DNA from: Buchnera aphidicola (Cinara splendens)
GTDB lineage: Bacteria; Pseudomonadota; Gammaproteobacteria; Enterobacterales; Enterobacteriaceae
Direction of reading: 5' to 3'
Length of the DNA stretch: 64,000 bases
NCBI RefSeq assembly: GCF_900698975.1
Contig: NZ_LR217722.1
Location: forward strand, 248,001 to 312,000
In this document: one piece after another, positions 2,347 to 63,402 of the stretch
How positions within the stretch are numbered: the first letter of the stretch is position 1
Layout of the letters: every line of letters starts with the position of its first letter
Program-made: the position numbers and the translations under genes
The notes under the pieces: generated by a model
Database searches by the model: none
Seen by the model: only the letters and a program-made list of their open reading frames with translations
Told to the model about the DNA's origin: nothing

Positions 2347-4062
2347 ATGCGTACTAAATATTGCGGAGAAATTACACCAGTTGATATAAACACAATAATT
2401 ACTGTATGTGGTTGGGTTAATAAAATACGAATTTTAAAAAAAATAATTTTTGTTGAAGTAAAGGATACTACAGGAATCATACAAGTTATTTTTAATAAAA
2501 AAAATGATGCATATATTTCTTCAGTACTACGTTTACGTAATGGTTTTTGTATACAGATTCAAGGACTAGTCACCATAAAAAAATCGTTTAATTTATTACA
2601 CAATACTTTACAGGAAAAAATCATAGAAATTATAGGATTTACATGTTTAATATTTAATAAAACACTTCCTATACCATTAGATTATACAAAAAAAAATAAG
2701 AAAGATATAAGATTTAAATTTCGTTATTTAGATTTACGCCGCACTGTAATGTTTAAAAACATTGAAACACGTAGTAAAATAACTACTATAATTAGAAAAT
2801 TCTTTATAAAGAATAAATTTTTAGAAATTGAAACTCCTGTTTTAACTAAATCTACTCCAGAAGGAGCATTAGATTATTTAGTTAATAGTCGATTATATCC
2901 AGGTAAATATTATGCATTACCTCAATCTCCACAATTATTCAAACAATTATTAATGATTTCAGGAATAGATCGATATTATCAAATTGCCAAATGTTTTAGA
3001 GATGAAGATCTACGATCTGATCGACAACCAGAATTTACACAAATAGATATAGAAATAGCTTTTTCAAAAATACATTGTATACAAAAATTGATAAGTAATT
3101 TAATACAAAAATTATGGTTATCAATTAAAAAAATAACATTAAAAAAAATAAAAAAAATAAGCTATTATGATAGCATATTAAAATATGGAACAGATAAACC
3201 GGACTTAAGAAATCCTATTCAATTTATTGATTTAGATAATTTTTTTAAAAATGATTTCCAATTTTTTTTTCCTTGGTTATTGAAAAAAAAACCTAATCGT
3301 ATTATTTCTATTAGAATTCCTAATGGAATAAATTTAATTTCAGAAAAAAAAATAAAAATTTATGAAAAATTTTTAAAAAAAATTAAATTAAATCAATTGA
3401 TGTATATAAAAATTGTTGATATAGATAGCTTTAATATACATATAGATCCATATTTAAGCAAAAAAATCAAAAAAAAACAAATATATCAAATATTTCCTCA
3501 AAATATTATCTGTAACGGAGATATATTTTTTATAGTAGCAGAAGAAACAAATTTAGCTAACAAAATACTAAGTAATTTAAGATTAAAAATTGGAATTGAT
3601 TTAAAAATAACAAATTTAGAACAAGTATGTCCAATTTGGATCACAAATTTCCCTTTATTTAAAAAAGATAAACATGAAAATTTAAAATCTATGCATCATC
3701 CATTTACTTCTCCACAATATGAGATACCAAATATAACTTTTACAGATCCATGCAAAATATTATCTAGCGCATTTGATTTAGTAATTAACGGTTGTGAAAT
3801 AGGCGGAGGATCTCAAAGAATTCATGATTATAACCTTCAAAAAAAAATTTTTAATATACTTCAAATTAATAAAATTAAACAAAAAGAAAATTTTGGTTTT
3901 TTTTTAAATGCTTTAAAATATGGTGCACCACCTCATGCGGGATTAGCATTAGGTTTAGATCGTTTAACTATGTTATTAACAGATAGTAGTACTATTTCTG
4001 ACGTAATTGCTTTTCCAAAAACTACTTCAGCAACTTGTTTGATGACAGGCGCTCCATGTTAA
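2347..4062 (+). CDS. aspS: aspartyl-tRNA synthetase
   Basis: Class II synthetase that charges tRNA-Asp (571 residues against about 590 in E. coli). It has the N-terminal OB-fold anticodon-binding domain (~1-105), the class II core with RFKFRYLDLRR and FLEIETPVL (motif 1), CFRDEDLRSDRQPEFTQID (motif 2), the bacterial insertion domain, and GLALGLDRL (motif 3). The C-terminus stops about 20 residues early, just after the conserved AFPKTT and CLMTGAP segments, so the final E. coli tail is absent while the active site is intact. A TAGGA motif precedes the ATG. Confidence 0.97.
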   Translation: MRTKYCGEITPVDINTIITVCGWVNKIRILKKIIFVEVKDTTGIIQVIFNKKNDAYISSVLRLRNGFCIQIQGLVTIKKSFNLLHNTLQEKIIEIIGFTCLIFNKTLPIPLDYTKKNKKDIRFKFRYLDLRRTVMFKNIETRSKITTIIRKFFIKNKFLEIETPVLTKSTPEGALDYLVNSRLYPGKYYALPQSPQLFKQLLMISGIDRYYQIAKCFRDEDLRSDRQPEFTQIDIEIAFSKIHCIQKLISNLIQKLWLSIKKITLKKIKKISYYDSILKYGTDKPDLRNPIQFIDLDNFFKNDFQFFFPWLLKKKPNRIISIRIPNGINLISEKKIKIYEKFLKKIKLNQLMYIKIVDIDSFNIHIDPYLSKKIKKKQIYQIFPQNIICNGDIFFIVAEETNLANKILSNLRLKIGIDLKITNLEQVCPIWITNFPLFKKDKHENLKSMHHPFTSPQYEIPNITFTDPCKILSSAFDLVINGCEIGGGSQRIHDYNLQKKIFNILQINKIKQKENFGFFLNALKYGAPPHAGLALGLDRLTMLLTDSSTISDVIAFPKTTSATCLMTGAPC

Positions 4063-15182: not shown

Positions 15183-15203
15183 ATCATCATATATACAAAC
15201 ATA

Positions 15204-15288
15204 TACCCGGAGCGGGACTTGAACCCGCAAAGCCATAAAAGCCGAGGGATTTTAAGTCCCTTGTGTCTACCAATTTCACCATCCGGGC
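15204..15288 (-). tRNA. leuZ: tRNA-Leu (anticodon UAA)
   Basis: Read on the minus strand, it folds as an 85-base class II tRNA. The acceptor GCCCGGA pairs with TCCGGGT and the discriminator is A. The anticodon stem AGGGA/TCCCT encloses a CTTAAAA loop (UAA), a long variable arm follows, and the T-arm GCGGG-TTCAAGT-CCCGC is complete. It matches E. coli tRNA-Leu(UAA) closely. No CCA is encoded after the discriminator base. Confidence 0.95.
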
Positions 15289-15316
15289 ATGAAATTTATC
15301 AATATTTAGTAATTAA

Positions 15317-15387
15317 AGGCGCGTCCTGGAATTGAACCAGGTTTCACGGATTTGCAATCCGTTACATTACCAATCTGCCAACGCGCC
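15317..15387 (-). tRNA. cysT: tRNA-Cys (anticodon GCA)
   Basis: A 71-base cloverleaf on the minus strand. The acceptor GGCGCGT/ACGCGCC carries the discriminator U that is the main cysteine identity element. The anticodon loop reads TTGCAAA (GCA), and the T-arm is CCTGG-TTCAATT-CCAGG. No CCA is encoded. It lies between tRNA-Leu and tRNA-Ser and is probably co-transcribed with them. Confidence 0.95.
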
Positions 15388-15418
15388 ACATAATTATATC
15401 TATTTATATTATGTAAAT

Positions 15419-15503
15419 TGGAGGAAGAGGGATTCGAACTCTCGGATAATTTCTCATCGACGGTTTTCAAGACCGCTGCCTTAAACCACTCAGCCATTCC
15501 TCC
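15419..15503 (-). tRNA. serT: tRNA-Ser (anticodon UGA)
   Basis: An 85-base class II tRNA on the minus strand. It has acceptor GGAGGAA/TTCCTCC, anticodon loop CTTGAAA (UGA) and a long variable arm, the main SerRS contact. Two oddities are visible. The discriminator is A where E. coli tRNA-Ser has G, and the T-stem GAGAG/CCCTC contains one A-C mismatch. No CCA is encoded. It is the probable first gene of the Ser-Cys-Leu tRNA cluster. Confidence 0.94.
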
Positions 15504-20615: not shown

Positions 20616-21395
20616 ATGAAAAAAATATCAATATTAAAAAATATAATAATCATGTTTGTCTTACTACTAAATATATCAAGCGTATCAGCAAAAAAAATTC
20701 ATAGTTTAATAAATATTTCTGGTATTAAAAATATACAGATTATAGGATATGGATTAGTAGTTGGATTACCTGGAACTGGAGATAACACATTACACATTCC
20801 ATTCACACGTCAATCTTTGAATAATATGCTAATAAAACTTGGAATATATACAACATGTAATAATAATATACGTACAAAAAATGTAGCAGCTGTAATAGTA
20901 ACAGCAATAATTTCTCCTTGGAGTTATGTTGGAAAAAAAATTGATATCACAGTTTCTTCTATTGGAAATGCTAGTAGTTTAAATGGTGGAACTTTATTAA
21001 TGACACCTTTACAAGGTATAGATAAAAAAATATATGCTGTTGCTCAAGGTAATATATCCATGAATTGGAGAAAAATAAAACTAAATTATACAAAAAAAAT
21101 TTCTATAAATAATCCAACACGAAAAAAAATAATTCATGGAGCAATCGTAGAAAAATCTACATCAAATATTCTTAATAAATATAAAAATGGAATTTTTTTA
21201 TTAAAAATAAAACATAAAAATTGGTGCTTGTTACAAGAAATTTATAATACTATTAATATACATTATTTTGATATAGCTACTATTATAGATGGTAACACTA
21301 TACAAATAATAATACCTAAGAACAAAAAATTACAAAATCAAATTTTAATGAATATTATGAATATAAATATATCTATAAAAAATTATAAAAAATAA
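20616..21395 (+). CDS. flgI: flagellar P-ring protein FlgI, C-terminally truncated
   Basis: Periplasmic P-ring protein. A signal peptide (residues 1-25, ending VSA) is followed by the conserved IIGYGLVVGLPGTGDNT-like core, NNMLIKLGI, KNVAAVIVTA, ASSLNGGTLLMTPL and VYAVAQGNI. The 259 residues compare with about 365 in E. coli. The reading frame ends where E. coli has IQNMQVNV, so roughly the last 95-100 residues are missing, and no continuation appears in another frame downstream. The N-terminal two thirds are well kept, which suggests selection still acts on the short form. A long inverted repeat lies 45 bases after the stop. Confidence 0.93.
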   Translation: MKKISILKNIIIMFVLLLNISSVSAKKIHSLINISGIKNIQIIGYGLVVGLPGTGDNTLHIPFTRQSLNNMLIKLGIYTTCNNNIRTKNVAAVIVTAIISPWSYVGKKIDITVSSIGNASSLNGGTLLMTPLQGIDKKIYAVAQGNISMNWRKIKLNYTKKISINNPTRKKIIHGAIVEKSTSNILNKYKNGIFLLKIKHKNWCLLQEIYNTINIHYFDIATIIDGNTIQIIIPKNKKLQNQILMNIMNINISIKNYKK

Positions 21396-21732: not shown

Positions 21733-22697
21733 ATGAATACTATTCATGCTAAACCAATATCCATTATTATTACGAAACATATGTCAGAACAAAGAATCGA
21801 CAATTTTTTATTTAAAACTTTTAAAAAATTACCCAAAAGAATGATATATCGTAGTATACGAATCGGAAAAATAAAAATTAATAAAAAAAAAGTACAACCA
21901 TTTTATAAATTAAAAATACATGATAACCTTACTCTATACTCAATAAAAATTGAGATAAAAAAAAAAATATTAATTTAAAATCATCAATAGTGCATTTATT
22001 TTTAAAAAATATATTATTTGAAGATAAATATTTAATTATTTTCAATAAACCATATGGAATCGCAGTACACGGAGGGAGCGGTATAAATTATGGTGTAATA
22101 GAAATATTTAGAAAAATTCGTCAAGAATTAGCATTTCTAGAATTAGTTCATCGTATTGATAAAGAAACTTCTGGAATATTAATACTTGCAAAAAAACGTT
22201 CTATTTTAAAAAAAATGCATGAAAATTTAAGAAACAAACTAATACATAAAGAATATTTAGCATTATTACATGGTCATTGGTCCGAAAAAAACACTACCGT
22301 TAGTCTTCCTTTACTAAAAAAAAAAAATGATCATCACAAAAAAAAAGTATGTGTTCACAAAAATGGAAAACCATCAATTACTCGTTTTAAAATTTTTCAA
22401 TACTTCCATAATACTACCCTTATGTCCATAATTCCAATAACAGGACGCACACATCAAATTCGAGTACATGCTGCACAATTTGGACATCCAGTTGTTTTTG
22501 ATCAAAAATATGGAGACATTAAAAAAGAAAAAAAAATCCTTCATAAAAAAAATGGCAGACTGTTATTACACGCTTATAAAGTTTTTTTTTATCATCCATT
22601 AAATAATGAAAAAATTTTTATAACTGCTAAATTAGATGAACGATTTAAAAAATTATTGAAAATATTTTCAAAAAAAAATATATTTAATAACTTTTAA
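21733..22697 (+). pseudogene. rluC: 23S rRNA pseudouridine synthase RluC, split by a frameshift at an A11 tract
   Basis: RluC makes pseudouridines 955, 2504 and 2580 in 23S rRNA. Frame 1 (21733-21978) encodes the S4 RNA-binding domain (QRIDNFLFKTFKKLPKRMIYR). The catalytic domain continues in another frame to 22697 with FNKPYGIAVHGGSG, the catalytic-Asp motif HRIDKETSG, and TGRTHQIRVH. Between them is a run of 11 A (21957-21967). One extra A joins the frames without a stop and gives a protein of normal layout. The downstream frame is well conserved, so slippage rescue, known for poly(A) tracts in Buchnera, is plausible. An independent start at GTG 21990 is possible but lacks a ribosome binding site. 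Confidence 0.85.
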
Positions 22698-26295: not shown

Positions 26296-27101
26296 ATGTA
26301 TCTAATAGATACTCATTGTCATATTAATCGCATAGACGATACTAATAAGCCTGAAACATTAGATTATATCTTAAAAAAAGCATATGCAAATAATATAAAA
26401 TTATTCTTATCCGTATCTACCTCTATTGAAGATTTTTATAATGTATATAAATATACTTATACTCATAAAAACATTTTACTATCATGTGGTTTACATCCTA
26501 ATGATCAACATACAAATAATGATTTGCAAAAAATACTATCATTATCTAAAAAAAAAAAGTTATTGCAATTGGAGAAACAGGATTAGATTTTTATAAATCT
26601 ACAAAAAACAAAAACAAGCAAATTGAATTATTTAAATATCATTTATATATATCTGACATAACTAAAAAACCTCTAATTATTCATAACAGATATGCTGATT
26701 ACGAAATATTTCAATCTCTAAATTCAAATAAAAATAAATTATATTCCGGAGTTATACATTCTTTTACTGGAACGATAGATACAGCAAGAAAATTTTTAGA
26801 TGCTGGATTTTATATATCATTTTCTGGAATTATTACATTTAAAAAATCTAATGAATTAAGAAACGTATTAAAATTTATACCATTGAATAGATTATGCATA
26901 GAAACAGACGCACCTTATTTATCTCCAGAACCGTACAGAGGAATGATTAATCAACCATCGTTTTTATATTACACAGCAAAAACTATTCAAAAATATTTAA
27001 AAATTGATTTTTTTAAATTTACTAAAATTTTAAACAATAATTTTTTTAAATTATTTAATATTAAAAAAAAAAATATAACTAGTCTTATCAAGACTGAATA
27101 A
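26296..27101 (+). pseudogene. ycfH: TatD-family metal-dependent hydrolase (YcfH), frameshifted at an A11 tract
   Basis: TatD-family deoxyribonuclease-like hydrolase; the cellular role of YcfH is uncertain. The first frame (26296-26586) carries the metal ligands of DTHCHINR and the CGLHPND segment, then runs into a stop. A run of 11 A lies at 26548-26558. One extra A joins it to a continuous second frame ending at 27101. That frame holds IAIGETGLDFY, the HNR and HSFTG metal and catalytic segments, and IETDAPYLSPEP. Ligands on both sides are needed for activity, so the halves cannot work separately. Either it is a young pseudogene or it is rescued by slippage. Confidence 0.87.
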
Positions 27102-47790: not shown

Positions 47791-49440
47791 TTAACGTAAA
47801 TTCCAACCATCAGGTTCACGAACTAATTTTCTAGACATTAAATCATCAATTTGTGAAGAATTAATAGTCTCATATTTCATTAAAGCATCTTTCATAGCAT
47901 GTAAAATATCTATATTTTCATGCAAAATTTTTTTTGCGCGTTGATAATTTTCTTTAACTAACAATTGTATTTCTTTATCAATAATACGAATTGTTTTATC
48001 AGAAAAATATTTTAATTTAGACACAGAGTTACCTAAAGAAAAATCTTGATGCTCTTCTGTATATAAAATAGGTCCTAATTTATCTGAAAAACCCCATTTA
48101 GTAATCATTTTTCGCGCTAAATTAGTAGCTACTTTAATATCATGAGATGCTCCAGTAGAAATTTTATTAGATCCATAAATAATTTCTTCTGCTATTCGCC
48201 CACCATACAAAGTAGAGATCTGGCTTTCTAATGTTTGACGATTTAAGCTAAATACATCATCTTTCGGCAAAAATACAGTTACTCCTAAAGATTTTTCACG
48301 TGGAATAATAGTAACTTTATGAACAGGATCATGGTCAGGAACTAATCTACCTACAATAGCATGTCCGGATTCGTGATAAGCAATAGATTCTTTATGACTT
48401 TCTGTCATGACCATAGATCTTCTTTCAGAACCCATCAATATTTTATCTTTAGATTTTTCAAGCTCTATCATAGAAATTGTGGTCTTGTTACAACGAGCTG
48501 CCAATAAAGCTGATTCATTTACTAAATTAGCTAAATCAGCCCCAGAAAAACCAGGAGTACCTCTCGCAATAACCATTGGAACAACGTCATTAGAGATAGC
48601 TACTTTACGCATATGAATTTTTAAAATTTCTTCCCTACCAACAACGTCGGGTAATGGAATTACAATTTGACGATCAAATCTACCTGGTCTCAATAAAGCT
48701 GGATCTAGGACATCTTGTCTATTAGTAGCAGCAATTATAATAACTCCTTCATTACCTTCAAAACCATCCATTTCTACTAATATTTGATTTAATGTTTGCT
48801 CGCGTTCTTCGTTACCCCCACTAACTCCTGTTCCTCTTTTTCTTCCAACAGCATCAATTTCATCTATAAAAATTATACAAGGAGAATGTTTTCTAGAATT
48901 TTTAAACATATCCCTGACACGAGCAGCTCCTATACCGACAAACATTTCCACAAAATCGGAGCCTGAAATTGTAAAAAAAGGAACATTAGCTTCTCCAGCA
49001 ACTGCTTTGGCTAATAATGTTTTTCCAGTTCCTGGGGGACCAACTAGTAAAATTCCTTTAGGAATTTTACCTCCTAATTTTTTAAATTTTTGGGGTTCTT
49101 TTAAATATTCTACTAATTCCGAAATATCTTCTTTTGCTTCGTTACAACCTGCTACATCTAAAAAAGTAATTTTAATGGAATTATCAGATAACATTTTAGC
49201 TTTGCTTTTACCAAAGAACAAAGATCCTATGCCATTACTAATTTGTGAATATTTTAAAAAACAAAAAAACAGCACTATTAATAAAAAAAAAGGAAGCCAA
49301 GACAAAAAAATAGATACTAGAAAATTTTGTTTAACTGGAATTGTATTGGTAATTATAATATCTTTTGTGAATAAAACATCTAATGATTTAATGTTATAAA
49401 CAAACATATTGGTGATATATTGAGTCATATCTTTTCTCAT
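47791..49440 (-). CDS. ftsH: ATP-dependent zinc metalloprotease FtsH, N-terminally truncated
   Basis: Membrane-anchored AAA+ protease that degrades misfolded membrane proteins and regulators. It has 549 residues against 644 in E. coli. The AAA module ([20 protein letters not shown], second region of homology [19 protein letters not shown]) and the zinc motif HESGH are intact. The N-terminus aligns only with the end of the E. coli periplasmic domain, so transmembrane segment 1 and most of that domain are missing. One membrane span remains (~41-62, [20 protein letters not shown]). No frameshifted N-terminus was found upstream. The C-terminal tail is also about 35 residues shorter. Confidence 0.95.
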
Positions 49441-49657
49441 AACTACAATTTTGTTTATTAATGTATATATTAAAAATTTTATTTGTACTAATTTAAATTA
49501 AAAAAAATACATAATTAATTGAGTATTATATACAGTACATCCGTATAAATTTTAAAATAACAATACCTATATCACTAAAAAATCAAGAAAATTAAATTTT
49601 AATTATATCAGTAAATAACAAACCGCTTTAAATAAATATTAAAAAAAAAATAACAAA

Positions 49658-50287
49658 TTATTTTTTAATTCCTCGAGCTATAACAAAAACTTCTCGAGAA
49701 TTAATACGAGAAGAACATGGCTTAAAAATTTTTACTAATTTAAAAACATCACAAATTTTTTTCATATACATATTAAATCCATAACCTTGAAATAACTTCA
49801 TTATCAAACATCCATTTTTTAATAATACATGCATAGAAATTTTTAAAGCAACATCATTTAATTTAAACATATTAGTATTATCTATAATAGAAAAGCCACT
49901 AACATTAGGAGACATATCAGACATAACAACATTCCAAGAATTTTTTCTTAAATTAAAAAAAATTTTTTTTTGCATACGAATATCAGTAACATCCTCATGA
50001 AAAAAAGTAACATTTTTTAACGGACGCATTGGTAAAATATCATATGCGAAAATAATTCCTGAATTTCCAATTTTTTGAAGAGCATATTCTGACCAACCTC
50101 CAGGATTAGATCCTAAATCTATCACTTTCATTCCAATATTAAAAATTTTTTCTGATTCATTAATTTCTTTTAATTTAAACCACGCTCTAGATCTCAAATT
50201 TTTTTTATTTCTTGCTCGTATATACGGATCTGCAAAATGTTTTTTTAACCAATTATTAGAATTTTTTGATTTTTTTTTTGCAATCAT
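49658..50287 (-). CDS. rlmE: 23S rRNA (uridine(2552)-2'-O)-methyltransferase RlmE (FtsJ/RrmJ)
   Basis: Methylates U2552 in the A loop of 23S rRNA, a late step of 50S assembly. Its 209 residues equal the E. coli length, and the catalytic tetrad falls at the same numbers: Lys38 (AWFK), Asp124 (SDMSPN), Lys164 (IMKLFQG) and Glu199 (SREVF). The SAM-binding motif is DLGSNPGGW. Upstream of ftsH on the same strand, as in E. coli. Confidence 0.97.
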   Translation of the reverse strand: MIAKKKSKNSNNWLKKHFADPYIRARNKKNLRSRAWFKLKEINESEKIFNIGMKVIDLGSNPGGWSEYALQKIGNSGIIFAYDILPMRPLKNVTFFHEDVTDIRMQKKIFFNLRKNSWNVVMSDMSPNVSGFSIIDNTNMFKLNDVALKISMHVLLKNGCLIMKLFQGYGFNMYMKKICDVFKLVKIFKPCSSRINSREVFVIARGIKK

Positions 50288-59832: not shown

Positions 59833-61269
59833 TCAACTCGTTCCACCAATTGTTAACTGATCTATTTTAATAGTTGGTTGACCAACACTTACTGGAATAT
59901 TCTGTCCATTTTTTACACAATTCCCTACTCCGTCGTCTATACATAAATTATCTCCTACCATGGATATAGATTGCATTACCTCTGTTCCTGATCCAATTAA
60001 TGTAACGTCTTTTATAGGATAAATAGTTTTACCTTTTTTAATAAGATATGCTTCGGAAGTAGAAAAAACAAAATTTCCTGATGTTATATCTACCTGACCT
60101 CCACTAAAATTAACAGCATAAATACCATAATCAACACTATTTATAATATCAATAGGAGCATCCTTACCAGCCAATAAATATGTATTAGTCATACGAGGCA
60201 TAGGTAAATGTGCATATGATTCTCTTCGACCATTACCTGTACTTTTTTTATTCATAATATGTGCATTCAATTTATCCAGTAAAAAAGATTCTAAAATTCC
60301 ATCTTTAATTAAAACATTATATTGACCAGGCACTCCTTCATCATCTATATTTATAGAACCTCTTTTATTATACAGTGTTCCATTATCTACAATAGTACAT
60401 AAAGTAGAAGCAACTCTATGTCCTTTTTTTTTAGAAAATACAGAGGTTTTTTTTCGAATAAAATCTCCTTCTAATCCATGTCCTACTGCCTCATGAAACA
60501 AAATTCCTGGCCATCCGGGACCAAGGATCACTGGAAATAAACCAGATGGTGATGATTTTGCAAATAAGGAAATAAGTGCTATACGAACTGCTTCTTTAGT
60601 CCAAGTATCTATCAATGTTCCTTTATTAGTTTTTTTTTCAAAAAATTCATTAATTTTAAATCTACCTCCTCCTCCACTAGTTCCTTTTTCTCTACTATTA
60701 TTGTGCTCTACCGTTACTTGTATAGTAATATGGATTAATGATCGAATATCACTTGATAATGATCTGTTATCAGTAGATCCAATTATAATTTCTTCATATT
60801 CACATGTTAATGCAGCATAAACATCAGTAACTCGACTATCTTGTTGTCTAGCTAATTGATCAATATAATTTAAAATATAAATTTTTTTTTCAATATAATC
60901 ATTATTAATGGGATTAAATTGTGGATATATACTTTTAAAATTTGAATATAATTGTTTTTTTATAATATTATTTTTAGTATTGACAATCATATTACAAACC
61001 ATATTAGTAAAATAAATTAAATTTTTTAACGTAATAGAGTTAGTATAAGAAAAACTAGTAGAAATATCTTTTACTGCTCGTATTCCAACACCTTCATCAT
61101 AAAAATAAGATCCTTGTTTAACAATTTTATTATCTAGAATCCATGCTTCTTGTTCTTTTAATTGAAAATATATATCTCCAAAATCAACTTTATTTTCTAA
61201 CATATTATCTAACAACAAAAAAACATCTTGTTTTTTAAGATTATATTTATTCAATAAAATATTTATCAT
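59833..61269 (-). CDS. tldD: metalloprotease TldD
   Basis: Forms the TldD-TldE zinc metalloprotease that degrades unfolded peptides and matures microcin B17 in E. coli (478 residues; E. coli 481). The zinc motif HEAVGHGLEGD is intact. RGSINIDDEGVPGQYNVLIKDG, NGRRESYAHLPMPRMTNTYL and GSGTEVMQSISMVGDNL are strong family matches. The tldE/pmbA partner is not in this window. Confidence 0.97.
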   Translation of the reverse strand: MINILLNKYNLKKQDVFLLLDNMLENKVDFGDIYFQLKEQEAWILDNKIVKQGSYFYDEGVGIRAVKDISTSFSYTNSITLKNLIYFTNMVCNMIVNTKNNIIKKQLYSNFKSIYPQFNPINNDYIEKKIYILNYIDQLARQQDSRVTDVYAALTCEYEEIIIGSTDNRSLSSDIRSLIHITIQVTVEHNNSREKGTSGGGGRFKINEFFEKKTNKGTLIDTWTKEAVRIALISLFAKSSPSGLFPVILGPGWPGILFHEAVGHGLEGDFIRKKTSVFSKKKGHRVASTLCTIVDNGTLYNKRGSINIDDEGVPGQYNVLIKDGILESFLLDKLNAHIMNKKSTGNGRRESYAHLPMPRMTNTYLLAGKDAPIDIINSVDYGIYAVNFSGGQVDITSGNFVFSTSEAYLIKKGKTIYPIKDVTLIGSGTEVMQSISMVGDNLCIDDGVGNCVKNGQNIPVSVGQPTIKIDQLTIGGTS

Positions 61270-62434: not shown

Positions 62435-63402
62435 TTATACCATATCTTCGTAATATAATAATGTAAGTAGATGCACCATATCTAAAGGAGGACTAATCGT
62501 CCAAGTTTTTAATTCATTGGTTATAGGATGTATAAAACTTAACATTCTAGAATGTAGAGATGGTCTAGAAAATTTACACAAAAACCTACATGTTTTCTTA
62601 GATAATCCCAGTGAATTATGTTTTATACCTTTAGAATATATACTATCTCCAAATATAGGATGAGCAATGGCAGAAAAATGTACTCTAATCTGATGCGTTC
62701 TTCCCGTTTTTATTTGTACACGAACATATGTATAATTTCTGAATCTAGTAATAACTTTATAGTGAGTAATTGCTTTTTTTCCTCCGCTACCAATTGTCAT
62801 AATGGTTCGACGATGAATATTTCTTTTAATTGGATAATTGATATTTCCGTTTCGTTTAATTCTTCCAATAACAATAGCATCGTATTCTTTAATTATTTTA
62901 CGGTTTTTAAATAAACTAACTAAATAATTATATGCTAAAATTGTTTTAGCTACAACTAACAAACCTGATGTATTTTTGTCTAATCTATGAACTATACCTG
63001 CTCTAGGTAAACTAGAATTACGTTTATAATGAAAAATTAAAGCATTTAACAATGTTCCAGATGTATTTCCGTAGCCTAAATGAACAACAAAATTAGATGG
63101 TTTATTTATTATTAATATCTCAGAATCTTCAAAAATAATATCCAATGGTATATTTTCTTTTTTTATTTTAACGAGATTAAATTCATTATTGACACATACA
63201 ATAATTACATCATTAAAAAAAATTTTTTTTTTGGAGCAGTGACAATCACATCATTTACAGATATACATCCTAATAAAATCCATTTTTTTATACGCGAACG
63301 AGATACCGGAAAAAACTTTTGAACTAAAATTTTATCCAATCTATAAGACTGTAATTTTGATACAGTAGATATAAATTTTAATTTTATTGTGTTAAAAGAC
63401 AT
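62435..63402 (-). pseudogene. rluD: 23S rRNA pseudouridine synthase RluD, split by a frameshift at an A10T8 tract
   Basis: RluD makes pseudouridines 1911, 1915 and 1917 in helix 69 of 23S rRNA. The first frame (63402-63205) encodes the S4 domain (YRLDKILVQKFFPVSRSRIKKWI) and stops soon after a run of 10 A and 8 T on the coding strand (63232-63215). One extra base in the run restores a continuous frame through IFFNDVIIV to IPLDIIFED. The catalytic domain then has NKPSNFVVHLGYG, the catalytic-Asp motif HRLDKNTSG and TGRTHQIRVH. This frame is undamaged to 62435. Like rluC, it is probably rescued by slippage or very recently broken. Confidence 0.87.

Follow-up and report, generated by a model that had tools for sequence, protein, structure and literature searches.

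Rescue of frameshifts at poly(A) tracts has been described in Buchnera and Blochmannia, and the conservation of such frameshifts between species is likewise already in print, as the available portions of two papers state (PMC3017870; PMC4389277). The cases of Tamas et al. (2008), as cited in the accessible parts of PMC5009743, PMC3017870, and PMC3890641, resemble those described here in a single poly(A) indel, an otherwise intact gene, purifying selection, and a similar host, but the citing passages do not name rluC or rluD, and what is found here is a pair of paralogues whose shifts fall at almost identical points of the protein, where the S4 domain ends. The ancient frameshifts of Blochmannia (Wernegreen et al., 2010, via excerpts in PMC4389277 and PMC3017870) share with the present ones their conservation between species, and parallel events or a reversion have been reported for erfK and ytfM (PMC3017870, same portions); the present case differs in spanning sixteen species, in its one phase throughout, and in its recurrence in several genera. 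Recoding of dnaX, according to the available part of PMC3711429, is ribosomal in E. coli and takes the form of transcriptional slippage on a run of nine adenines (A9) in Thermus. The likeness to dnaX lies in a shift on an A-run that would yield two products from one gene. The short dnaX product of E. coli is the one that depends on the shift, whereas in rluC and rluD this would be the long one, and no stimulators were seen. No description of the shifted rluC/rluD pair was found in the literature searched, beyond which lay supplementary files and the articles of Tamas et al. (2008) and Wernegreen et al. (2010) themselves; "rlu" is absent from the main text of PMC3017870, PMC4389277, and PMC3890641, and "pseudouridine" from that of PMC3017870 and PMC3711429. 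Homopolymer rescue is known; rluC and rluD add a new case of this kind, whose pattern involves two paralogues, the S4-domain end, one sense, and several origins.

The window, the whole 64,000-nucleotide stretch analyzed, corresponds to C1:248001-312000 of genome G000 (454 kb in three contigs), that of Buchnera aphidicola (Cinara splendens). On its plus strand, an upstream frame of 81 aa at 21733-21978, with an ATG start and a TAA stop at 21976-21978, encodes an S4 RNA-binding domain, and an open downstream frame at 21969-22697 encodes a pseudouridine synthase catalytic domain containing HRIDKETSG. The shift site is a run of eleven adenines (A11, 21957-21967). It lies between the domains: the S4 match (Pfam S4, E = 1e-6) spans residues 20-64 of 81 and ends before the run, and the catalytic match (PseudoU_synth_2, E = 9e-30) comes after it. 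NF008249, the RluC equivalog, in which S4 is followed by PseudoU_synth_2, is the best match of both pieces: the upstream piece covers positions 11-76 of this NCBIfam model, and the downstream piece matches it with E = 4e-78 and 262.5 bits. Scores below the whole-protein cut-off of 378 are expected, because each is a piece only. By domain order and equivalog match the gene is RluC, with predicted activity as the 23S rRNA pseudouridine(955/2504/2580) synthase.

Measured from the S4 frame, the catalytic frame is offset by -1; the joined reading would be restored by one additional A, by the loss of two, or by ribosomes shifting -1. These results uphold what the first-pass annotation had read from the letters, namely that rluC is out of frame at the A11 exactly between its two domains, now flanked by Pfam and NCBIfam matches, that the S4 frame ends at 21978 while the catalytic domain continues in the frame that one extra A would give, that this frame keeps HRIDKETSG, here open over 21969-22697 and with an RluC equivalog match, and that a -1 ribosomal shift leads to the same product by identical frame arithmetic. 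A11 occurs in 42 overlapping matches on both strands of the window vs. 9.6 expected from shuffles; long A-runs alone are therefore ordinary here, and the item that stands above chance is the shift itself. Among other observations on this genome, the FlgI gene (window 20616-21395, plus strand) is C-terminally short: its 259 aa align to positions 1-227 of a model that has 344, and homology seemingly extends to about 21494. The C2 contig bears leuA, leuB, leuC, and leuD; of the plasmids compared, the closest to it is one from the Buchnera of Cinara pseudotaxifoliae (88.6% identity over 98% of a 5,000-base query).

The paralogue rluD, on the minus strand of the same window (whole locus 62435-63402), is broken in the same sense (-1). 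Its upstream frame (63205-63402) encodes the S4 domain minus the last strand and meets a stop directly after the tract, an A10 in the minus-strand sense (63223-63232) that keeps this length in all of the 16 genomes except G012, which has A9; the catalytic domain, with HRLDKNTSG, is encoded at 62435-63145 in a frame that is open upstream as far as the tract. Both pieces match the NCBIfam RluD model (E = 4.6e-8 for the upstream and 4.2e-80 for the catalytic piece) together with the respective domain models (Pfam S4, E = 4.9e-9; PseudoU_synth_2, E = 6.7e-35). Here the tract interrupts the S4 domain itself: the upstream piece aligns to Pfam S4 at positions 2-40 of 48, and the last S4 strand (e.g., FFNDVIIV) is encoded only in the downstream frame. 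Neither this parallel break nor the conservation of the shift across the genus had been part of the first-pass annotation.

Comparison with relatives bears out the rluC offset. The gene is present in all 16 Buchnera genomes compared, the window genome included, and is offset in the same phase in 11 (G000, G001, G002, G004, G005, G006, G007, G008, G011, G012, and G015) and in a single frame in five (G003, G009, G010, G013, and G014); phase +1 was found in none, and neither was it found at the rluD tract. The S4 motif QRIDNFLF and the catalytic motif lie 359 nt apart in ten shifted genomes and 362 nt apart in one, vs. 360 nt in two in-frame genomes and 363 nt in three. A-run length ranges from 11 to 15 (A11-A15) in shifted rluC genes and from 8 to 14 in in-frame ones; given the equal spacing in ten shifted genomes, the length differences among these are edge substitutions. 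The rluD gene is shifted in 14 of the 16 genomes, a tally made up of 13 of 15 genomes by junction reading plus G008, which was judged by hand, and is in frame in G010 and G013; the scan for internal stops yielded an identical division. No internal stop interrupts either half of rluC or rluD in any of the 16 genomes, the apparent stops inside some rluC matches being natural ORF ends. Two other S4-domain genes, which from their size we take to be rpsD and tyrS, are open in all 16 genomes; a third has an open frame in 14 genomes but is short in G009 (near C1:202800), and it was not found in G014.

As a control, shifts were counted in the syntenic region (64-68 kb) of the 16 genomes, in 45 non-overlapping families of 100 aa or more that include rluD; rluC was judged apart, since clustering did not assemble it as one family. 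Twenty-six of 679 gene-by-genome cells are shifted, and 13 of these are rluD. In the 44 other families 13 of 663 cells are shifted, none of the families in more than three genomes, and about seven of the shifts fall at the 976 sense A-runs of nine or more that these families contain. Six of the shifted cells, in genes that are otherwise open, have a long sense A-run at the junction, and their sense is that of rluC and rluD: an aspartyl-tRNA-synthetase-like gene (G008), fabD (G006 and G012), and a TatD-like gene (G000, G004, and G011). The seventh, the multi-shift PmbA/TldD gene of G005 with an A9 within reach, has the other sense, as do the PmbA/TldD gene of G001, an FtsH-like gene in G004, and one family in G010, none of which is shifted at a long sense A-run. 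Uniformity of sense is thus a property of A-runs in genes that are otherwise open, and not of every indel. Families under 100 aa, short true genes among them, families overlapping longer ones, and cells with coverage under 0.6 were left out of these counts, and the coverage filter removed one shifted cell, flgI of G012. Among the short families, four with apparent shifts in 7 to 13 genomes were taken as non-genes: three of them (68-96 aa) overlie tRNA genes at 15203-15503, and the fourth (60 aa, at 1958) is antisense to a 71-aa frame that occurs in 15 genomes without a shift.

The TatD-like DNase gene (window 26296-27101, plus strand) is out of frame at an A11 (26548-26558) in the same sense in its three genomes. 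The FtsH-like gene (window 47794-49671, minus strand) displays homology to relatives that reaches about 230 bp upstream of its first ATG/GTG/TTG (49440); in G004 and G011 a shift affects its N-terminal part. The PmbA/TldD-like family (window 59836-61269) is open in the window and carries four shifts, in both phases, in G001 and three, in one phase, in G005. The aspartyl-tRNA-synthetase-like gene (family at window 2347-4059) is shifted at an A12 in G008; if real, this shift would test rescue in a gene expected to be essential.

The number of origins was read from a midpoint-rooted tree of 13 intact proteins (support 0.81 for the G003-G012 pair and 1.0 elsewhere). For rluC, three changes are counted by eye, equivalent to three gains or to two gains and a reversal in G003; for rluD, a single gain suffices if the G010-G013 branch is deepest; failing that, a second gain or a reversal is needed as well. 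Outside the genus, 27 of 29 genomes of 800 kb or less were taken (G080 and G091 were left out), and in these most rluC and rluD frames are long in the open-frame column; junctions were read by eye for seven rluC (of 16 regions) and nine rluD. Among them, G022 (A11) and G063 (A10) have the rluC shift at the junction, and G032, G102, and G072 (A9 each) have the rluD shift at the usual site. Urease, looked for in seven genomes as a possible sign that G072 is a Blochmannia, was absent from all seven. In G032, which belongs to another genus (loci L234 and L209), rluC is shifted at an earlier A10 run within the S4 domain, and rluD is shifted too. All six of these rluC/rluD shifts outside the genus have the same sense as in Buchnera, and the shift has therefore arisen several times. 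The rluD of G073 has no recognizable S4 domain, that of G063 is broken within the catalytic domain, and G020 has one gene only.

Constraint was estimated as dN/dS summed over three independent shifted sister pairs, with nine intact genes comparable without gaps as the reference (range 0.09-0.29). Values for rluC are 0.13 in the S4 part and 0.15 in the catalytic part, and for rluD 0.32 in S4, 0.23 in the part after the tract, and 0.21 in the catalytic part; the rluD S4 value is slightly higher than the intact-gene range. The 16-codon linker after the rluC tract, at 0.66 on 12 changes, is under weak constraint. Purifying selection acts on both sides of the shift in rluC and in rluD. In the same three pairs, intergenic A/T runs of nine or more had changed phase in nine of 59 alignable cases, from which the probability of keeping phase under neutrality is 0.13 for the nine-species rluC clade, 0.03 for the 12 rluD genomes, and 0.45 for the G008-G014 pair; the joint value of 0.002 is rough, and the alignable runs are perhaps the more conserved ones. 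Two further pairs did not enter this rate. Taken alone, the rluC phase in the nine-species clade could thus have persisted neutrally. The frameshift in these two paralogous pseudouridine synthases is real, old, repeated, and constrained. A fresh decay of rluC is very unlikely, and the gene, judged by its conserved coding pattern, is very probably still functional.

These data bear on two readings in which the frameshift would have no product to restore. Homopolymer undercalling in the assemblies would produce -1 shifts wherever A-runs were called short, and an assembly error had been named by the first-pass annotation as a way in which the rluC break might be explained away. That the same assemblies hold so few shifts at their other long sense A-runs, about seven at 976, speaks against undercalling as the cause; furthermore, the rluD A10 is shorter than many in-frame runs, and the identical phase is repeated in 11 genomes for rluC and in 14 for rluD. 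Given this recurrence across genomes, an assembly error is very unlikely, and we lend undercalling next to no credence. Dying pseudogenes are a more familiar proposition, since homopolymer indels cause gene loss in AT-rich reduced genomes, and the accessible part of a 2025 paper counts rluD, with hisH, lptG, and ybiS, among the putatively inactivated genes of one Blochmanniella (PMC12779916). Yet the rluC shift occurs in a whole nine-species clade with an S4 dN/dS of 0.13 and both halves without an internal stop, and true decay has a different appearance, as the multiply shifted PmbA/TldD genes of G001 and G005 illustrate; pseudogenes in progress are thus an improbable account of these loci.

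The remaining alternatives concern how a functional gene would be expressed. Under gene fission, the S4 peptide and the catalytic domain would be two independent products, with an internal start for the second; PDB chains named RluC (1xpi and 1v9k; 228-231 residues) consist of the catalytic part alone, and the window rluC has a GTG at 21990. However, that GTG, the first canonical start in the downstream frame, is common to only one other (G004) of the 11 shifted genomes, and there is no conserved start for a second piece in the 11 shifted rluC or the 14 shifted rluD genes: ATG, GTG, and TTG are absent between the tract and the catalytic core in six of the former and eight of the latter, and occupy scattered positions in the other six rluD genes. 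As the rluD S4 fold is also interrupted by the tract, fission would be a surprising outcome. The joined S4-plus-catalytic protein is the likely product of both genes, because a conserved catalytic-frame start is lacking and the last S4 strand of rluD is encoded only in the downstream frame. Such a protein could come mainly from -1 ribosomal frameshifting on the A-run, in the manner of dnaX, instead of from polymerase slippage. The frame arithmetic is identical, the S4 frame offers a slippery A_AAA_AAA (ATA AAA AAA AAA), and a long A-run may work without a stimulator. Against this, no AGGA, GGAG, or GAGG lies within 24 nt upstream of the tract of either gene in the 16 genomes, and no consistent fold was found in the 70 nt downstream relative to mononucleotide shuffles (z from -1.9 to +1.8 for rluC in 16 genomes; from -4.3 to +1.9 for rluD, under -1 only in G001 and G003). 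Ribosomal shifting as the main route therefore appears unlikely, if less so than fission or decay.

The reading that we prefer, with a probability of roughly 0.7, is that rluC and rluD carry old -1 poly(A) shifts from which slippage of the polymerase, or less likely of the ribosome, yields some full enzyme. RNA polymerase would slip on the A-run, so that some transcripts gain one A, or else, as the less likely step, ribosomes would move back by one on the run. A fraction of the product would then be the full S4-plus-catalytic enzyme, sufficient for 23S rRNA modification, and the remainder a short S4 peptide with no shown use. Slippage adding an A is the best candidate mechanism because transcription insertions in Buchnera are located in A/T runs and become commoner with run length (PMC5574713), and because frameshifted genes of endosymbionts have been reported to give 12-50% corrected transcripts (PMC5009743, its ref. 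244); counting against slippage, the genome-wide study of Buchnera transcription errors detected no frame-restoring error (PMC5574713). Shifts of a single phase would also follow from a mutational deletion bias in A-runs. The range of 12-50% presumably goes back to Tamas et al. (2008). The first-pass annotation had supposed that the gene may still make some full-length enzyme plus free S4 domain; a functional gene, the joined frame, and slippage as the best candidate survive from this proposal, and a use for free S4 does not, because in the equally shifted rluD the tract removes the last S4 strand.

Two further candidates were tried and rejected. A 6-bp inverted repeat (CTCAAT/ATTGAG, window 21939-21954) ends two bases before the rluC A11 in G000, G004, and G011, and a hairpin at this position was considered as a general stimulator. 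The stem exceeds synonymous-codon shuffles in these three genomes (p = 0.001-0.004) but not in the eight other shifted genomes (p = 0.08-1.0) or the five in-frame ones (p = 0.94-1.0). When the stem was aligned across 12 of the 16 genomes (without G008, G010, G013, and G014), 81.5% of cells were paired, a level reached by three of 500 shuffles, vs. 30-52% for slid positions; the pairing was discounted because the encoded peptide, Ser-Ile-x-Ile-Asp/Glu, already dictates four of the six pairs. Nor was there any sign of selection to keep AAA codons uninterrupted, since even in intact genes 611 of 700 Lys triplets are free of interruption.

On the plain reading, Lys-rich S4 ends give rise to A-runs in AT-rich genomes, and low-copy enzymes tolerate partial output. 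A bolder suggestion is that the tract at the S4 end is a selected device which, together with polymerase slippage, would set the amount of S4-bearing enzyme and so throttle rRNA pseudouridylation by homopolymer length. Such a device would explain why shifts of one sense have arisen repeatedly in two paralogues and have rarely or never been reversed, even though one additional A suffices; we nevertheless regard it as doubtful. The occurrence of in-frame and shifted species for two paralogues constitutes a natural replicate series for the need of a slippage-made enzyme, with rRNA pseudouridines as its chemical read-out. It also carries a warning, exemplified by the accessible part of the Blochmanniella list (PMC12779916), that shifted genes such as rluD may be called lost.
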